Of a DNA stretch of 45,116 nucleotides, positions 11,843-37,859 are shown piece after piece. Every line of letters starts with the position of its first letter. The stretch's first letter is position 1. Below the pieces are notes generated by a model, which had not been told where the DNA came from, did not search any database, and was given only the letters and a program-made list of their open reading frames with translations. Origin of the DNA: Acidimicrobiales bacterium (GTDB taxonomy: Bacteria > Actinomycetota > Acidimicrobiia > Acidimicrobiales > UBA8592); contig JAKMEQ010000093.1 in NCBI GenBank assembly GCA_022425805.1, forward strand, positions 1 to 45,116, written 5' to 3'. Made by a program: the position numbers and the translations under genes.

Positions 11843-12418
11843 TCAGCCAAGTTCAGCCTCATCTCTAAGTTGGCAAATGAGTACTCGGATAAGGTGATCG
11901 GCGCTACTTTCAGGCGGAACTGGAAGTGTCAATTTCGCACCTTTATAGAGAGACGAGAACCCGTAAACAGCCGAGAGGAAGAGCCTGCTCCAATGTGTCC
12001 TTTCGGGTTGTTCAATCCCGATTCGTTCTAACACTAGGTCAAGTGGGTAACTGACGCTGGTAATTGCTGTCTGAAGTTCTAGATCATCTTCAGGTGGATG
12101 GATTGAAGCTGTAAACAAACCTGGGTGATTAAGAGCGAACGAAAGCTGGGCTTGGAGGATCGCCTCGACCGCATCTATTCCCGAACGTCCCATCGCTGCA
12201 TCAATAACAGCGTCTGCGAGCTTCTCTAGGCTGTAAAGTGCTAGTTCCCGACGAAGCCCTTTCATACCATCGATATGAGCGTAAAGCGATTGGGTACGCA
12301 TACCGGTGCGTTCTGCGACTGCAGATAGGGAAACATCTTCGATTTTTCCCTTTTCTTCAAGGATGAAGATACCGGCTTCGATGACCTGTGTTTTTGTTAT
12401 TCCGATTCGTGCAGCCAT
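11843..12418 (-). CDS. TetR-family regulator with WHG-type C-terminal domain
   Basis: A 191-aa TetR protein. Residues 1-50 form the DNA-binding domain (ITKTQVIEAGIFILEEKG, then the helix-turn-helix around LSAVAERTGMRTQSLYAHI). The rest resembles the WHG ligand-binding domain, with FALNHPGLFTASIHP and SAVYGFSSLYKGAKLTLP. ATG 12418 follows AAGGAA. The gene is divergent from the UGSC operon across 67 bp that hold a 19-bp inverted repeat at 12459-12477. By the usual TetR arrangement it should repress both itself and that operon until a ligand binds. The ligand is unknown. Confidence 0.93.
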   Translation of the reverse strand: MAARIGITKTQVIEAGIFILEEKGKIEDVSLSAVAERTGMRTQSLYAHIDGMKGLRRELALYSLEKLADAVIDAAMGRSGIDAVEAILQAQLSFALNHPGLFTASIHPPEDDLELQTAITSVSYPLDLVLERIGIEQPERTHWSRLFLSAVYGFSSLYKGAKLTLPVPPESSADHLIRVLICQLRDEAELG

Positions 12419-12458
12419 AAAGAATCTATTCCTTTTCTGCTTTTTAGGTTGTTATTTC

Positions 12459-12477
12459 AGTCTAACTATATCAGACT
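12459..12477. promoter_or_regulatory. Candidate TetR operator
   Basis: The 19-bp sequence AGTCTAACTATATCAGACT has 7-bp arms (AGTCTAA / TCAGACT, one mismatch) around a 5-bp centre. It lies between the divergent TetR gene and the UGSC operon, ending eight nt before the chosen start codon, and covers AT-rich sequence that could hold the -10 element. Size and position suit a TetR site; binding is inferred. Confidence 0.5.
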
Positions 12478-12485
12478 TATATCTA

Positions 12486-13532
12486 ATGAACTTCGACAAC
12501 TATCGTATGTTAGATCTCACCACTGATGACCCAATGGCCCTCACTGCTACGTTCGCTTCTCACGGCTGGGGAGATGGACTTCCACTAGTTGCTCCTACAC
12601 CTGATCGAGTCGAGACCATGCTTTCTTACCTCGGGGACGTTGACCCTGAAGAAGTCATAGCGACCCTACCTCCACGTTCTGGCGAGGCTACACGCAGGAT
12701 GATCGCGGTCAATGCCGTGTTAGCGGGTTGCGCACCGCAACATTTACCTGTCCTTATATCCGCTGTGCGCGCCCTGAGTGCGCCTGAGCTAAATCTCCGT
12801 GGCGTTAATGCCACGACCCACTGTGTGGCTCCACTTCTGATCATTCACGGGAAATATGCCAGCGACGCTGGCTACAACGGTGGACTTGGTGCTTTCGGGC
12901 CCGGGAACCACGCCAATGCTTCCACAGGTCGTGCCCTACGACTAATACTGCTTCACATCGGCGGAGCTGTTCCAGGGGGAGGTGACGCTTCAACCCAAGG
13001 AGGACCTGCAAAATATACTTACTGTGTAGCTGAAAATTTAGATGAGTCGCCGTGGGGAAGCTATGCCACGACAAAAGGGGTTGACTCTGGTTCAGCCGTT
13101 ACCGTTCACTGTGGAGAGGCCCCGCATAATGTGCACGACATGGAGTCATCAGACCCAGCCGCAATTCTCGACAAAGTTGCCTCAGCTATGTGTTCTTGGG
13201 GGCAAAATAATGCACCAATCAGTCAGGGAGAATATTTTATTACCTTATGCCCCGAACACGCCTTCACATGTGCTTCACAAGGTTGGAGCAGAGATGATAT
13301 TGCTTCGTACCTTTATAACAAAGCAACAGTCAACGTAGGTGAAGCAAAACAGGCTTTCGCCTTACGAGCTTGGGCCCCATGGCAACACGCTTTGGGAGAC
13401 GCTGACCGGATCGCCATGACAGAAAAACCAGACAACATTAAGATACTTGTCGTTGGTGGCCCCGGTAAGCACAGTTCGATTATTCCCAGCTGGGGCATGA
13501 CAAAAAGCGTCACAGTCCCAATCATGCCCTAA
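12486..13532 (+). CDS. Uncharacterised conserved protein, first gene of the UGSC selenoprotein operon
   Basis: I recognise the general type (proteins beginning with a GWGDGLPLV motif, residues 27-35, found beside UGSC proteins in marine bacteria) but no assigned function. The 348-aa protein has conserved-looking blocks: LPPRSGEATRRMIAVNAVLAGC (61-82), RGVNATTHCVAPLLI (105-119), GYNGGLGAFGPG (129-140) and GRALRLILLHIGG (148-160). Seven cysteines are scattered, with no CxxC pair, signal peptide or membrane segment. ATG 12486 was chosen because the frame upstream runs back through the TetR gene; no ribosome binding site is visible, so the transcript may be leaderless, or ATG 12507 may be used. 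The gap to the selenoprotein gene is 27 nt. It may be a partner enzyme or substrate-binding subunit of the selenoprotein. Confidence 0.85.
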   Translation: MNFDNYRMLDLTTDDPMALTATFASHGWGDGLPLVAPTPDRVETMLSYLGDVDPEEVIATLPPRSGEATRRMIAVNAVLAGCAPQHLPVLISAVRALSAPELNLRGVNATTHCVAPLLIIHGKYASDAGYNGGLGAFGPGNHANASTGRALRLILLHIGGAVPGGGDASTQGGPAKYTYCVAENLDESPWGSYATTKGVDSGSAVTVHCGEAPHNVHDMESSDPAAILDKVASAMCSWGQNNAPISQGEYFITLCPEHAFTCASQGWSRDDIASYLYNKATVNVGEAKQAFALRAWAPWQHALGDADRIAMTEKPDNIKILVVGGPGKHSSIIPSWGMTKSVTVPIMP

Positions 13533-13559: not shown

Positions 13560-14087
13560 GTGAAGATCTACACGCCAGAGGGACAACTAGGAGAACCACA
13601 AACAAGTCTTGCTCCCTCCCCCACTGTCCTTGCAGGAAAAAGAATTGGCATCCTCGATAACACAAAGCCAAACGCTGGCCTGCTTCTCGCACGACTGGCT
13701 TCCCGCCTTGCAGATCGCACCATGGCAGAACTTACTATTACAGAAAAAAAGAACGCTGCCCTTGCTGCCCCAGACCAAGTCATCGGCAACTTAACCAAGG
13801 AAGTAGAAATTGTCCTTACTGGTTCAGCTGATTGAGGAAGCTGCACTTCATGGAGTATCCATGATGCTGTCCAATTAGAAACAATGGGGAAACCTACTGT
13901 CGTTGTTACAACTGAAAAGTTTCGCTTCTTAGCAGACCAAGTAGCTACTTCCTTAGGGCACCCTAACCTTCGCATCCTTGAGGTCGGCCATCCACTAGGT
14001 GGAACAGAGGAAGAAACGATTTTACGCTGGGCGGATGAAGCCGTTGAAGCCACAATCCAATTACTTACACGACCAATCACAGCATGA
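13560..14087 (+). CDS. UGSC-family selenoprotein (in-frame TGA read as selenocysteine, Sec92)
   Basis: One reading frame of 176 codons is interrupted only by TGA 13833-13835. Reading through gives GSAD-U-GSCTSW, the U-G-S-C motif that defines a selenoprotein family I recall from marine metagenome surveys. Sec92 and Cys95 form a U-x-x-C redox pair. Residues 29-60 read GKRIGILDNTKPNAGLLLARL, and the C-terminal half continues GKPTVVVTTEKF and LEVGHPLGG, like a small alternating alpha/beta protein. The start is GTG 13560 with AAGGGAG upstream; the stop overlaps the SDR start as ATGA. Without readthrough the product ends just before its motif, and no start codon precedes GSC. A SECIS-like hairpin follows. 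The reaction catalysed is unknown. No selA, selB, selC or selD is in this window. Confidence 0.92.
13843..13867 (+). promoter_or_regulatory. SECIS-like hairpin after the Sec92 TGA
   Basis: The RNA folds as GCA, a CU bulge, then a perfect 7-bp stem TCATGGA / TCCATGA with loop GTA, closed below by TGC. The loop G is the 20th nucleotide after the TGA, within the distance at which bacterial SelB-binding SECIS loops sit, and a GG pair lies at the top of the stem. The GU-purine loop matches that after the second selenoprotein TGA. Confidence 0.7.
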
Positions 14088-34475: not shown

Positions 34476-35834
34476 ATGCCGACCGTCATGTACTGGTTCC
34501 GAAAGGATCTACGACTCACCGGAAACCCTGCTTGGTCTGCTGCCTGCAAAGCCGGACATGTTTTCCCAGTTTTTATAAGTGAACCAGAACTTATCAGCGC
34601 AGCTGGTAAAGAACGGTTAATACAACTTTATGAGAATCTTGAATCTCTTCATCAGGAACTAGCCCAATTAGGTGGAGCACTCCACTTACTTCAGGGGCCT
34701 GCAGAAAAAGTGATTCCCAGACTTATCAGTGAGCTTGATGTAGCAAAGATTTTTGTCAACTCTGATGTGTCTCCCTTCTCAACAAAGCGAGATACAACAT
34801 TAGAACAAAAAATTAATATACCTATTCAGAAACACTGGGGAAATCTAATGCATCCGCCTGGATCGGTACTTACCCAGAAAGGGACTCTTTCTAAGGCATT
34901 CACCCCTTTCTACAAAAAATGGAACCAGATGCCCCTAGCCGAGATGCCCGCATTCACATCTCCAGAATTCATACGAGTAGAAAAATTGTTCTGGGAAAAA
35001 CCAAATATCACTTCATCGCATGGTTTAAATTCCGGGAGTGCCGGTGCCAAAACACGACTTGATGACTTTTTGTCCAGATCTGAACGTTATGAGGAGCTAA
35101 GAAACTTTCCGGGAAAGAGTGGAACCTCCATGTTGTCATCTGACCTGCATTTTGGAACGATAGGGCCATTAGAGATAATAAATAGAGTCAAAAGCGATAG
35201 TCATAGCCAGCAAATGTTTATACGCCAGCTCGCTTGGCGTGACTGGTATGCTCATCTCCTCTTCGCAACACCGGAAATAATATTCAAATCTGCAAACCCA
35301 ATTTATGAAAAAATTCAGTGGGAAAATAACCTTCTAGATTTCGACCTTTGGAAAAATGGGAAAACTGGCTATCCGATAGTTGATGCTGGCATGAGAGAAC
35401 TTCGTGCAACAGGGTTTATGCACAATAGAGTCCGAATGATCACTGCCTCTTTCCTCATAAAGGATCTACTGGTTGATTGGCGATTAGGAGAAAAGTATTT
35501 CCGACGGCACTTAATTGATGGAGATATTGCACAGAATGTTGGTAATTGGCAGTGGGTAGCTGGAACCGGATTTGATGCAGCACCATATTTTCGAGTTTTT
35601 AATCCAGTGTTACAATCCAAAAAATTTGATCCTGCTGGCGAATATATCCGCGCATGGGTGCCCGAGATCGGCAGCTTACAAAACGATCAGATCCATTCTC
35701 CGTGGACAATGACCAAGAACGATCTTCTGATACATGGAATAACTCTAGGAACGACTTACCCGCTTCCGCTTGTCGACCATGCTGAAGCTCGGGACCGTTC
35801 ATTGAAGGCATACAAAAAAGTTCGTGAGATCTAA
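34476..35834 (+). CDS. phrB: Deoxyribodipyrimidine photolyase (class I CPD type)
   Basis: A 452-aa flavoprotein that repairs UV-induced pyrimidine dimers with blue light. The N-terminal antenna domain begins TVMYWFRKDLRLTGNPAW. The FAD-binding domain has RQLAWRDWYAHLL, KTGYPIVDAGMRELRATGFMHNR and NWQWVAGTGFDAAPYFRVFNP, all diagnostic of class I enzymes. The tryptophan electron-transfer chain appears intact (W in NWQW and WRDW). It is convergent with the GrdB-like selenoprotein gene, 10 nt apart, and divergent from scpA. It fits a sunlit surface-water lifestyle. Confidence 0.95.
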   Translation: MPTVMYWFRKDLRLTGNPAWSAACKAGHVFPVFISEPELISAAGKERLIQLYENLESLHQELAQLGGALHLLQGPAEKVIPRLISELDVAKIFVNSDVSPFSTKRDTTLEQKINIPIQKHWGNLMHPPGSVLTQKGTLSKAFTPFYKKWNQMPLAEMPAFTSPEFIRVEKLFWEKPNITSSHGLNSGSAGAKTRLDDFLSRSERYEELRNFPGKSGTSMLSSDLHFGTIGPLEIINRVKSDSHSQQMFIRQLAWRDWYAHLLFATPEIIFKSANPIYEKIQWENNLLDFDLWKNGKTGYPIVDAGMRELRATGFMHNRVRMITASFLIKDLLVDWRLGEKYFRRHLIDGDIAQNVGNWQWVAGTGFDAAPYFRVFNPVLQSKKFDPAGEYIRAWVPEIGSLQNDQIHSPWTMTKNDLLIHGITLGTTYPLPLVDHAEARDRSLKAYKKVREI

Positions 35835-35844
35835 CAACAAGAAC

Positions 35845-36789
35845 TTAGAAGTCAATACCTTGGCAAATCCTGCAAGTTTCTCCCTCGTGCATCCTGGCAG
35901 CTTTATCTGCGTCTTCTTCAGTCTGGTACTGCGGTTCACCCCATCGCTCTAACCTGTCATCGACTACTTCACCGGGTTGGGTTTTCAACGGACCTCCTGC
36001 GGGAAAAACAAAGTCTTTCCACACGTCTGTAGTTTCCCATTTGTGCGGCAGGTCCACTATATGCTCTTCGGTCTCCCGCTCTACTAACGACATTGCTTCA
36101 GATACGATCAGGTATGAAACGTTTGGGTCTTCAACTTTTCCAGTTGTATGCCCGAGGGGAAAATCGGAAAAAACTGCTCGAGGTGTTTTTGCCGCTCTTG
36201 TGATGTCACGTGCAGAAGTAACGGAAGTAGTAGAGATGCCAGCGATTTCAAGTTGATGAGCGATCAAACCCACGGTCTGATGACAGACAGGTCAAACGGG
36301 AACTAAGAGAACTACATCTATTTCGTCCTCTAGGCAACGTTGGACCAGTGCAGGGGCAAGTTCTTCGCAGACACTACGTTGGGAGTAAATACCTCCCATA
36401 CAAGTAAAAAAATAAGGAGCTAACTCTCCAATAATATTTTCTTTTTCGAGTTTCTGAAGAGCATCAATAGGAAAAACAACATTGATGTCTTTTCGGGCAT
36501 CTTCTAGATCATAGGCAAAATGTGTTGCCCTTAAATTATTTGCATCGATATTGGATGGGATAGCGCGGTATGTTGTGTCGTCACGATAATTAAATGCAAC
36601 CTGTCCTGCCGCGTATATACCCCCTGTTGCGATAACACCTACTCGACTATCTGAAACTGCCTTAACAACAGGTGCCAAGGGTGGCGGCGAAGAGGCGACA
36701 AACCATTCGTAAGGTTCATATCCGAGTGCCGCATAAGTCGCCGTGATCCTTTTCATATAGTTGATTGGGGTTTGCCGGTTACTTTCCAT
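35845..36789 (-). CDS. GrdB-like selenoprotein (glycine/sarcosine/betaine reductase selenoprotein B family), Sec166
   Basis: One frame of 315 codons is broken only by TGA 36294-36292. Read as selenocysteine it gives VVLLVPV-U-PVCHQTVGLIAHQ, a U-x-x-C motif (Sec166, Cys169) in the middle of a GrdB-family protein. The N-terminal half shows YMKRITATYAALGYEPYEW, GVIATGGIYA and FTCMGGIY; the C-terminal half has GISTTSVTSARDITRAAKTPRAVF and ends with another CxxC (CRICQGIDF). True GrdB works with GrdA and GrdC in anaerobic glycine reductase; none of those is nearby, and free-standing relatives in aerobic marine bacteria have no established role. Redox activity is likely. ATG 36789 has AGGA nine nt upstream. 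It is divergent from trpS. Confidence 0.92.
36263..36281 (-). promoter_or_regulatory. SECIS-like hairpin after the Sec166 TGA
   Basis: On the minus strand ATCAGACC and GGTTTGAT form an 8-bp stem (one G-U pair) closed by a 3-nt loop GTG. The loop G is the 19th nucleotide after TGA 36294-36292. Stem length, distance and the GU-purine loop closely match the hairpin after the UGSC selenoprotein TGA, which supports both as SelB-binding elements. A different local fold (GTCTG/CAGAC) is shorter and lies too near the TGA. Confidence 0.65.
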
Positions 36790-36878: not shown

Positions 36879-37859
36879 ATGGCACGTGTATTTAGTGGAA
36901 TCCAACCTTCAGGTGATTTACACCTCGGCAATCTTCTTGGTGCCCTTGTCAACTGGGTCGACCATCAAGACGACCATGAAGCGGTTTATTGCATAGTAGA
37001 TCTTCATGCTTTAACCCTTCCGAAAGACCCAAACGATCTGAGGGCTAGCACTTTACAACTTGCCCAATTGCTTTTGGCTGTTGGTCTAGATCCGGAAAAA
37101 TGTACACTCTTTGTGCAAAGCCACGTACCTGAGCATTCTCAATTAGCCTGGCTTATGGAATGTACAGTCAGTTTCGGGGAGCTGAGTCGGATGACTGCTT
37201 TCAAGGACAAATCAGGCCGTAACGATTTCACCTCTGCTGGCTTATTTACATATCCAGCTCTTCAGGCAGCTGACATCCTTTTGTATGACACTGACCTCGT
37301 TCCAGTCGGCGACGACCAGCGTCAACATATTGAGATCACTCGGGATATAGCCGAACGCTTCAATAGCCGTTTCGGAGAAACATTTACCATTCCTCAGCAT
37401 GTGATTCCCACTGCAGGAGCCAGGGTAATGGACTTACAACACCCAGAACAAAAGATGTCTAAATCTGAAATATCTACAAATGGAACTATCAATGTCCTCG
37501 AACCCTTAGATACTGTTCGAAAGAAAATTAAACGAGCAGTGACGGATAGTGACAATGAAATCCAGTTTGACTTCGATAATAAACCTGGAGTTTCAAACCT
37601 TCTATCCATTCTTAGTGCTTCAACTGGACAACAACCTGGTGAAGTAGCGAAAACTTTTGATCGTTACGGTGATTTAAAAGCTGCTACAGCTGATGCAGTC
37701 GTGGAGCTTCTTGGCCCTATCCAACAGCGCTTCGCCGAACTTCAATCAGACTCTGAGGAAACCCGACGCCTTTTGCAAATAGGCGCTGAAAAAGCTCAGG
37801 AGGTCGCTTCTCAGACTCTAGAACGTGCAAAAAAGAATTCTGGTTTGTTAGAACCTTAA
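36879..37859 (+). CDS. trpS: Tryptophanyl-tRNA synthetase
   Basis: A 326-aa class I aminoacyl-tRNA synthetase that charges tRNA-Trp. The nucleotide-binding signature is HLGN at residues 15-18 (SGIQPSGDLHLGNLLGA), and the KMSKS loop is present near residue 192. The Rossmann core shows YCIVDLHALT and YPALQAADILLYDTDLVPVGDDQ. Length is normal, ending in a helical tail. ATG 36879 was chosen because the conserved sequence begins immediately. It is divergent from the selenoprotein gene and converges with the SpoU methylase gene, 5 nt apart. Confidence 0.97.
   Translation: MARVFSGIQPSGDLHLGNLLGALVNWVDHQDDHEAVYCIVDLHALTLPKDPNDLRASTLQLAQLLLAVGLDPEKCTLFVQSHVPEHSQLAWLMECTVSFGELSRMTAFKDKSGRNDFTSAGLFTYPALQAADILLYDTDLVPVGDDQRQHIEITRDIAERFNSRFGETFTIPQHVIPTAGARVMDLQHPEQKMSKSEISTNGTINVLEPLDTVRKKIKRAVTDSDNEIQFDFDNKPGVSNLLSILSASTGQQPGEVAKTFDRYGDLKAATADAVVELLGPIQQRFAELQSDSEETRRLLQIGAEKAQEVASQTLERAKKNSGLLEP

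Follow-up and report, generated by a model that had tools for sequence, protein, structure and literature searches.

A stand-alone selenoprotein gene of the PrdB/GrdB superfamily with a conserved C-terminal CxxC in an Acidimicrobiales bacterium

Described relatives and family assignment

Selenocysteine is the nucleophile in PrdB and GrdB, and electron transfer in the anaerobic enzymes is the task of separate partners, GrdA and PrdC. The protein described here is encoded in a 45,116-nucleotide stretch of DNA from a marine, uncultured bacterium of the Acidimicrobiales type, the whole of which is referred to below as the window. It has a core of about 225 residues homologous to PrdB of D-proline reductase (Terrisporobacter, Acetoanaerobium), with Sec at the same place in a shared UxxCH motif, and is likewise homologous to the C-terminal half of GrdB in the GrdB/GrdF/GrdH group (TIGR01917, TIGR01918, PF07355), again with Sec at the same place. 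However, the present family carries UPVCHQ where PrdB has UGTCHR, is about 60 residues longer than the Terrisporobacter PrdB, which stops at 241 aa, with a CxxC in the additional part, and has no PrdA either beside the gene or in the genus. Compared with GrdB it has neither the N-terminal half nor the UGTG motif, and there is no GrdA in the genus. A further GrdB relative, FarB of monofluoroacetate reduction in Cloacibacillus, has been proposed to act without a Schiff base, but its host is an anaerobe and its operon also encodes FarE, an iron-sulphur oxidoreductase and a transporter (PMC10838667).

The Sargasso Sea survey of Zhang et al. (2005) lists 42 genes for proline reductase PrdB (UxxC) as its third most abundant selenoprotein family (PMC1088965), and the GOS survey of Zhang and Gladyshev (2008) gives 235 Sec and 110 Cys forms for PF07355 and also tabulates UGSC-containing proteins (PMC2398784). 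The marine 'PrdB' resembles the present family in its PF07355 membership, its UxxC motif, the predominance of Sec over Cys and its abundance in sea water, while those parts of the two reports that describe the group mention neither a C-terminal CxxC extension nor missing partners (PMC1088965, PMC2398784). Going by the published description, the two are probably the same group. The group has been catalogued as 'PrdB' in ocean surveys since 2005, and the UGSC family is equally known; what is newly added here is the conserved C-terminal tail and a score that falls short of PrdB membership. The name proline reductase is carried by a highly abundant selenoprotein group of sea water, whereas in the protein studied here both the defining partner and the defining score are wanting.

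The best NCBIfam model is TIGR04483 (PrdB), at 137.2 bits against an equivalog cut-off of 300 bits. The GrdB models (GrdF, GrdH, TIGR01918) lie behind it at 53–64 bits and are all below cut-off, TIGR01918 (glycine/sarcosine/betaine reductase protein B) reaching 58.5 bits against a subfamily cut-off of 65.45. The Pfam model GRDB (PF07355), by contrast, is passed, with 45 bits over residues 38–163 against a gathering cut-off of 22. A sequence-only reading of the window had described the protein as GrdB-type; this holds at the level of the superfamily, although the closest described family is PrdB and not GrdB. The Terrisporobacter (Clostridia) PrdB, whose gene lies beside prdA, has 33% identity with the PrdB-like core over 226 residues. 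In a 40-row tree the two PrdBs are placed apart from the main group, alongside a true GrdB on a very long branch; the meeting of long branches makes such deep positions unsafe. Within the family UxxC is invariant, and no PHROGs match was obtained for the protein.

The scores to TIGR04483 and PF07355 would suit an ordinary Stickland reductase of D-proline or glycine, with this protein as one subunit and its partners encoded elsewhere in the genome. However, neither PrdA (TIGR04480) nor GrdA (PF04723) found a match in the window's genome (74% complete), in 17 sister genomes or in 23 genomes with close copies of the gene, while the same GrdA search was positive in five other genomes of the order; for PrdA, the incompleteness of the window's MAG is not shared by this set of genomes taken together. 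The scores themselves lie under the PrdB and GrdB cut-offs, and the two Rieske oxygenases and one P450 of the window suggest oxygen use and are consistent with life in oxygen. We regard the Stickland explanation as very unlikely and largely refuted, in keeping with the earlier view that a protein with no glycine-reductase partners nearby is not part of an anaerobic glycine reductase. That the gene stands alone and encodes a selenoprotein of the PrdB/GrdB superfamily is, in contrast, something of which we are highly confident, this confidence attaching to the selenoprotein nature of the product and to its family assignment.

Reading of the in-frame UGA

The frame contains exactly one TGA, at codon 166 (Table 1), which when taken as Sec yields LLVPV-U-PVCHQTV, as had been noticed at the outset (VPV-U-PVCHQT on read-through of a single interrupted frame). 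The plus strand of 35845–36789 is not an open frame.

Table 1. Positions of the PrdB-like gene, its elements, its neighbours and a second selenoprotein gene in the window
Feature	Position	Strand	Details
PrdB-like selenoprotein gene	36789..35845	minus	ATG at 36789, TAA ends 35845; 314 codons + stop
In-frame TGA, Sec166, opening residue of UPVC motif	36292..36294	minus	read-through and homologue conservation
SECIS-type hairpin, 8-bp stem, 3-nt loop	36263..36281	minus	+11..+29 after UGA; covariation
C-terminal CxxC (Cys306 and Cys309), proposed dithiol shuttle	35863..35874	minus	71/77 homologues
trpS, divergent neighbour	36879..37859	plus	89-bp gap to PrdB-like gene; functionally outside the system
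DNA photolyase, convergent neighbour	34476..35834	plus	10-bp gap to PrdB-like gene; outside the system
UGSC-family selenoprotein gene, SAD-U-GSC	13560-14087	plus	TGA at 13833-13835; PF24696 E=1.3e-45; NF041046 139 bits vs cut-off 125

Sixty whole genomes were searched, the window's own among them, and 23 of these have close copies (E below 1e-60), each with exactly one in-frame TGA. In the best 80 loci by similarity from GTDB genomes, which describe close homologues, the TGA stands at codon 166 in 80 of 80, in Actinomycetota, Binatota, Gamma- and Deltaproteobacteria and Chloroflexi, and Cys in none. Directly after it the close copies and the 80 loci read PVCH or PICH, with an unresolved base in one row. 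Cys does occupy the Sec position in more distant branches, both in an Acidimicrobiia paralogue in G058 (VPHCPVCHQ) and in Roseomonas and Haematobacter (VPNCPVCHQ, VPNCPICHQ); no sense codon other than Cys was seen there in relatives, and the selenocysteine reading comes through this comparison of Sec and Cys forms intact. Substitutions downstream of the UGA keep the frame, and the third-codon-position bias persists, though less strongly than upstream, since the C-terminal part is the faster-evolving one.

Without recoding the frame splits into two ORFs, of 165 aa and 142 aa, which would suit a TGA that really ends translation, with the remainder either started from its own GTG or dead. However, all 80 loci, across phyla, have TGA at this place, never TAA, TAG or a frameshift, and the conservation across the stop (VPV-U-PVCH), the coding constraint downstream of it and a covarying SECIS all argue against two genes or a pseudogene, an explanation to which we give next to no credence.

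In the alignment of the hairpin that follows the UGA, 88% of cells are paired and 5 of the 8 pairs have changed on both sides. The covariation score is reached by none of 500 shuffles and falls once the register is slid by at least one column, and RNAalifold recovers the same helix core unprompted. All 8 pairs are present in the window's copy; among the 1731 TGA triplets of the window, counted over both strands, no other has them in that register. An alternative hairpin in the window's own copy is slightly more stable (−9.7 kcal/mol, versus −7.7 kcal/mol for the conserved stem), and the case for a SECIS rests on covariation because the 91 nt after the UGA, folded as a single sequence, are not more stable than shuffles. 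The compensatory changes are those of a bacterial SECIS.

Because of the conservation of UGA166 together with the SECIS-type hairpin and the protein-level constraint after the UGA, comparison shows this codon to be one for selenocysteine, with decoding predicted to be by the SelA/SelB/SelC/SelD system; both the decoding and the UxxC motif, as originally proposed, are borne out. Reassignment of TGA to Trp or Gly, which exists in other bacterial lineages, found no support for this organism: TGA serves as the stop at the ends of neighbouring reading frames, a SelD with the classical Sec motif is present, and homologues show Cys at the site and not Trp or Gly. We consider its probability negligible.

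Selenocysteine machinery and neighbourhood

SelD is present in the window's genome and itself has the classical UGC motif (GAGUGCK), while searches of this MAG, which is 74% complete, recovered no SelA, SelB or tRNA-Sec. The SelB candidates in it were weak translation-GTPase matches under the cut-off, and those for tRNA-Sec proved by ARAGORN to be tRNA-Ser, Leu, Met and others. SelA, SelB and tRNA-Sec are present in sister genomes, and in one of these (G001) all three lie within 15–18 kb. A probe built on the nadE, mrp, selB and pnp genes of the G001 region found true counterparts of none of the four in the window's genome, paralogues only, whereas nadE at least is present in four sister genomes, most of which have the full set. 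As SelA, SelB and tRNA-Sec are missing together with neighbouring genes, an assembly gap is indicated, and this is the simplest account for their absence from the MAG. With the machinery in the genus and SelD in the genome itself, the proposal of a selenoprotein is not refuted on this count. Among genomes at least 90% complete, tRNA-Sec or SelA was found in 11 of 11 relatives with a family hit and in 13 of 25 without one (p = 0.004, a value that ignores kinship).

The window also holds the second, unrelated selenoprotein that the sequence-only reading had adduced; it belongs to the UGSC family, with matches to PF24696 and NF041046 (Table 1), and its gene likewise has a hairpin after the UGA. 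It is preceded by a 408-aa ORF at 12306–13532 with no Pfam match.

Both genes that flank the PrdB-like gene, annotated as trpS and photolyase, had rightly been called unrelated neighbours. Because the former is divergent and the latter convergent, the PrdB-like gene shares an operon with neither. Among the 80 loci trpS adjoins it in 16 and photolyase in 8; in the neighbourhoods of these loci no gene family accompanies it from one phylum to another, and we found neither an operon nor a cross-phylum conserved neighbour that might hint at the reaction. A cluster of enoyl-CoA hydratases was rejected as a functional partner, since it is made up of mixed members of that superfamily. In one subclade only (L161, L166, L170 and L177) a gene that reads from its sequence as MenB-like lies directly downstream.

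The C-terminal tail and a possible dithiol shuttle

The extension of about 60 residues contains conserved W257, D277 and R279, the motif PQYQ and the CxxC at its end, and is absent from two true PrdBs. The terminal CxxC, suggested from the start as a redox element, is confirmed as Cys306/Cys309 and occurs in 71 of 77 homologues; the remaining 6 are without the tail motif. Invariant residues outside the redox motif comprise H90, F91, D70, D71, R75, MGGIYS, W251 and W257. In an AlphaFold2 model (pLDDT 91) Sec166 lies between a strand (159–163) and a helix (167–182); confidence is lowest over the final 14 residues, as it should be if the tail is mobile. Sequence and profile searches gave no relatives of solved structure, and Foldseek with this model returned nothing at E ≤ 0.001. 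At one locus (L122) the C-terminal CxxC is replaced by HxxR with the rest of the tail kept (HQVRKGVDY), which unless it is a sequencing artefact provides a natural test case for a shuttle.

The C-terminal cysteines of ribonucleotide reductase hand on reducing equivalents by dithiol exchange. A plausible scheme, drawn by analogy with that enzyme and with PrdB and GrdB, is that Sec166, located where a beta strand gives way to the N-terminus of a helix, would act as a nucleophilic selenolate by which a small electrophilic substrate is reduced, that the oxidised selenium would be resolved by Cys169 to give a selenenylsulfide, and that the Cys306/Cys309 tail would reduce this selenenylsulfide by dithiol exchange and pass the oxidation to thioredoxin. 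In such a scheme the CxxC tail would replace the separate electron-transfer partners (GrdA, PrdC). Our tentative reading is a selenol reductase that draws on thioredoxin and has its dithiol shuttle built in, and we hold it with a confidence somewhat below even. Because no pyruvoyl partner (PrdA) was detected, an amino acid bound as a Schiff base is an unlikely substrate. The wider proposal, of a self-contained selenoenzyme in which a PrdB core freed from its pyruvoyl and electron-transfer partners uses its own CxxC shuttle and cleaves a non-amine metabolite reductively, in free-living bacteria that use oxygen and belong to several phyla, seems to us possible, if somewhat less than an even prospect. 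If the shuttle model is true, it would mean a widespread selenium-dependent reduction step in oxygenated water with no known substrate.

A UxxC combined with a C-terminal CxxC is also the typical layout of a thiol relay, and together with the Cys forms in paralogous branches and the lack of substrate-specific neighbours in the 80 loci it would fit a Sec-containing thiol-redox or peroxide-defence protein, that is a disulfide or peroxide reductase of PrdB/GrdB descent that acts without C–X bond cleavage. However, the many invariant residues beyond the redox motif suggest a specific substrate pocket, and profile searches of Pfam and NCBIfam matched no peroxiredoxin or thioredoxin family. We give this explanation real weight, though clearly less than an even share. 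The conserved tail and the almost exclusive use of Sec, like the lack of partners, offer direct experimental handles.

The window's genome encodes a paralogous selenoprotein of 387 aa with TTPV-U-PLCTRT (G000 contig C10, L083, 3748–4911, minus strand), which has a different, longer C-terminal domain and relatives across the order. In the same order, GrdA with an in-frame TGA occurs in G028, G040, G047, G048 and G059 (loci L179–L186), and four of these, G028, G047, G048 and G059, also have a GrdE/PrdA-like match on the contig that carries GrdA, which suggests that the order contains real glycine-reductase-type clusters.
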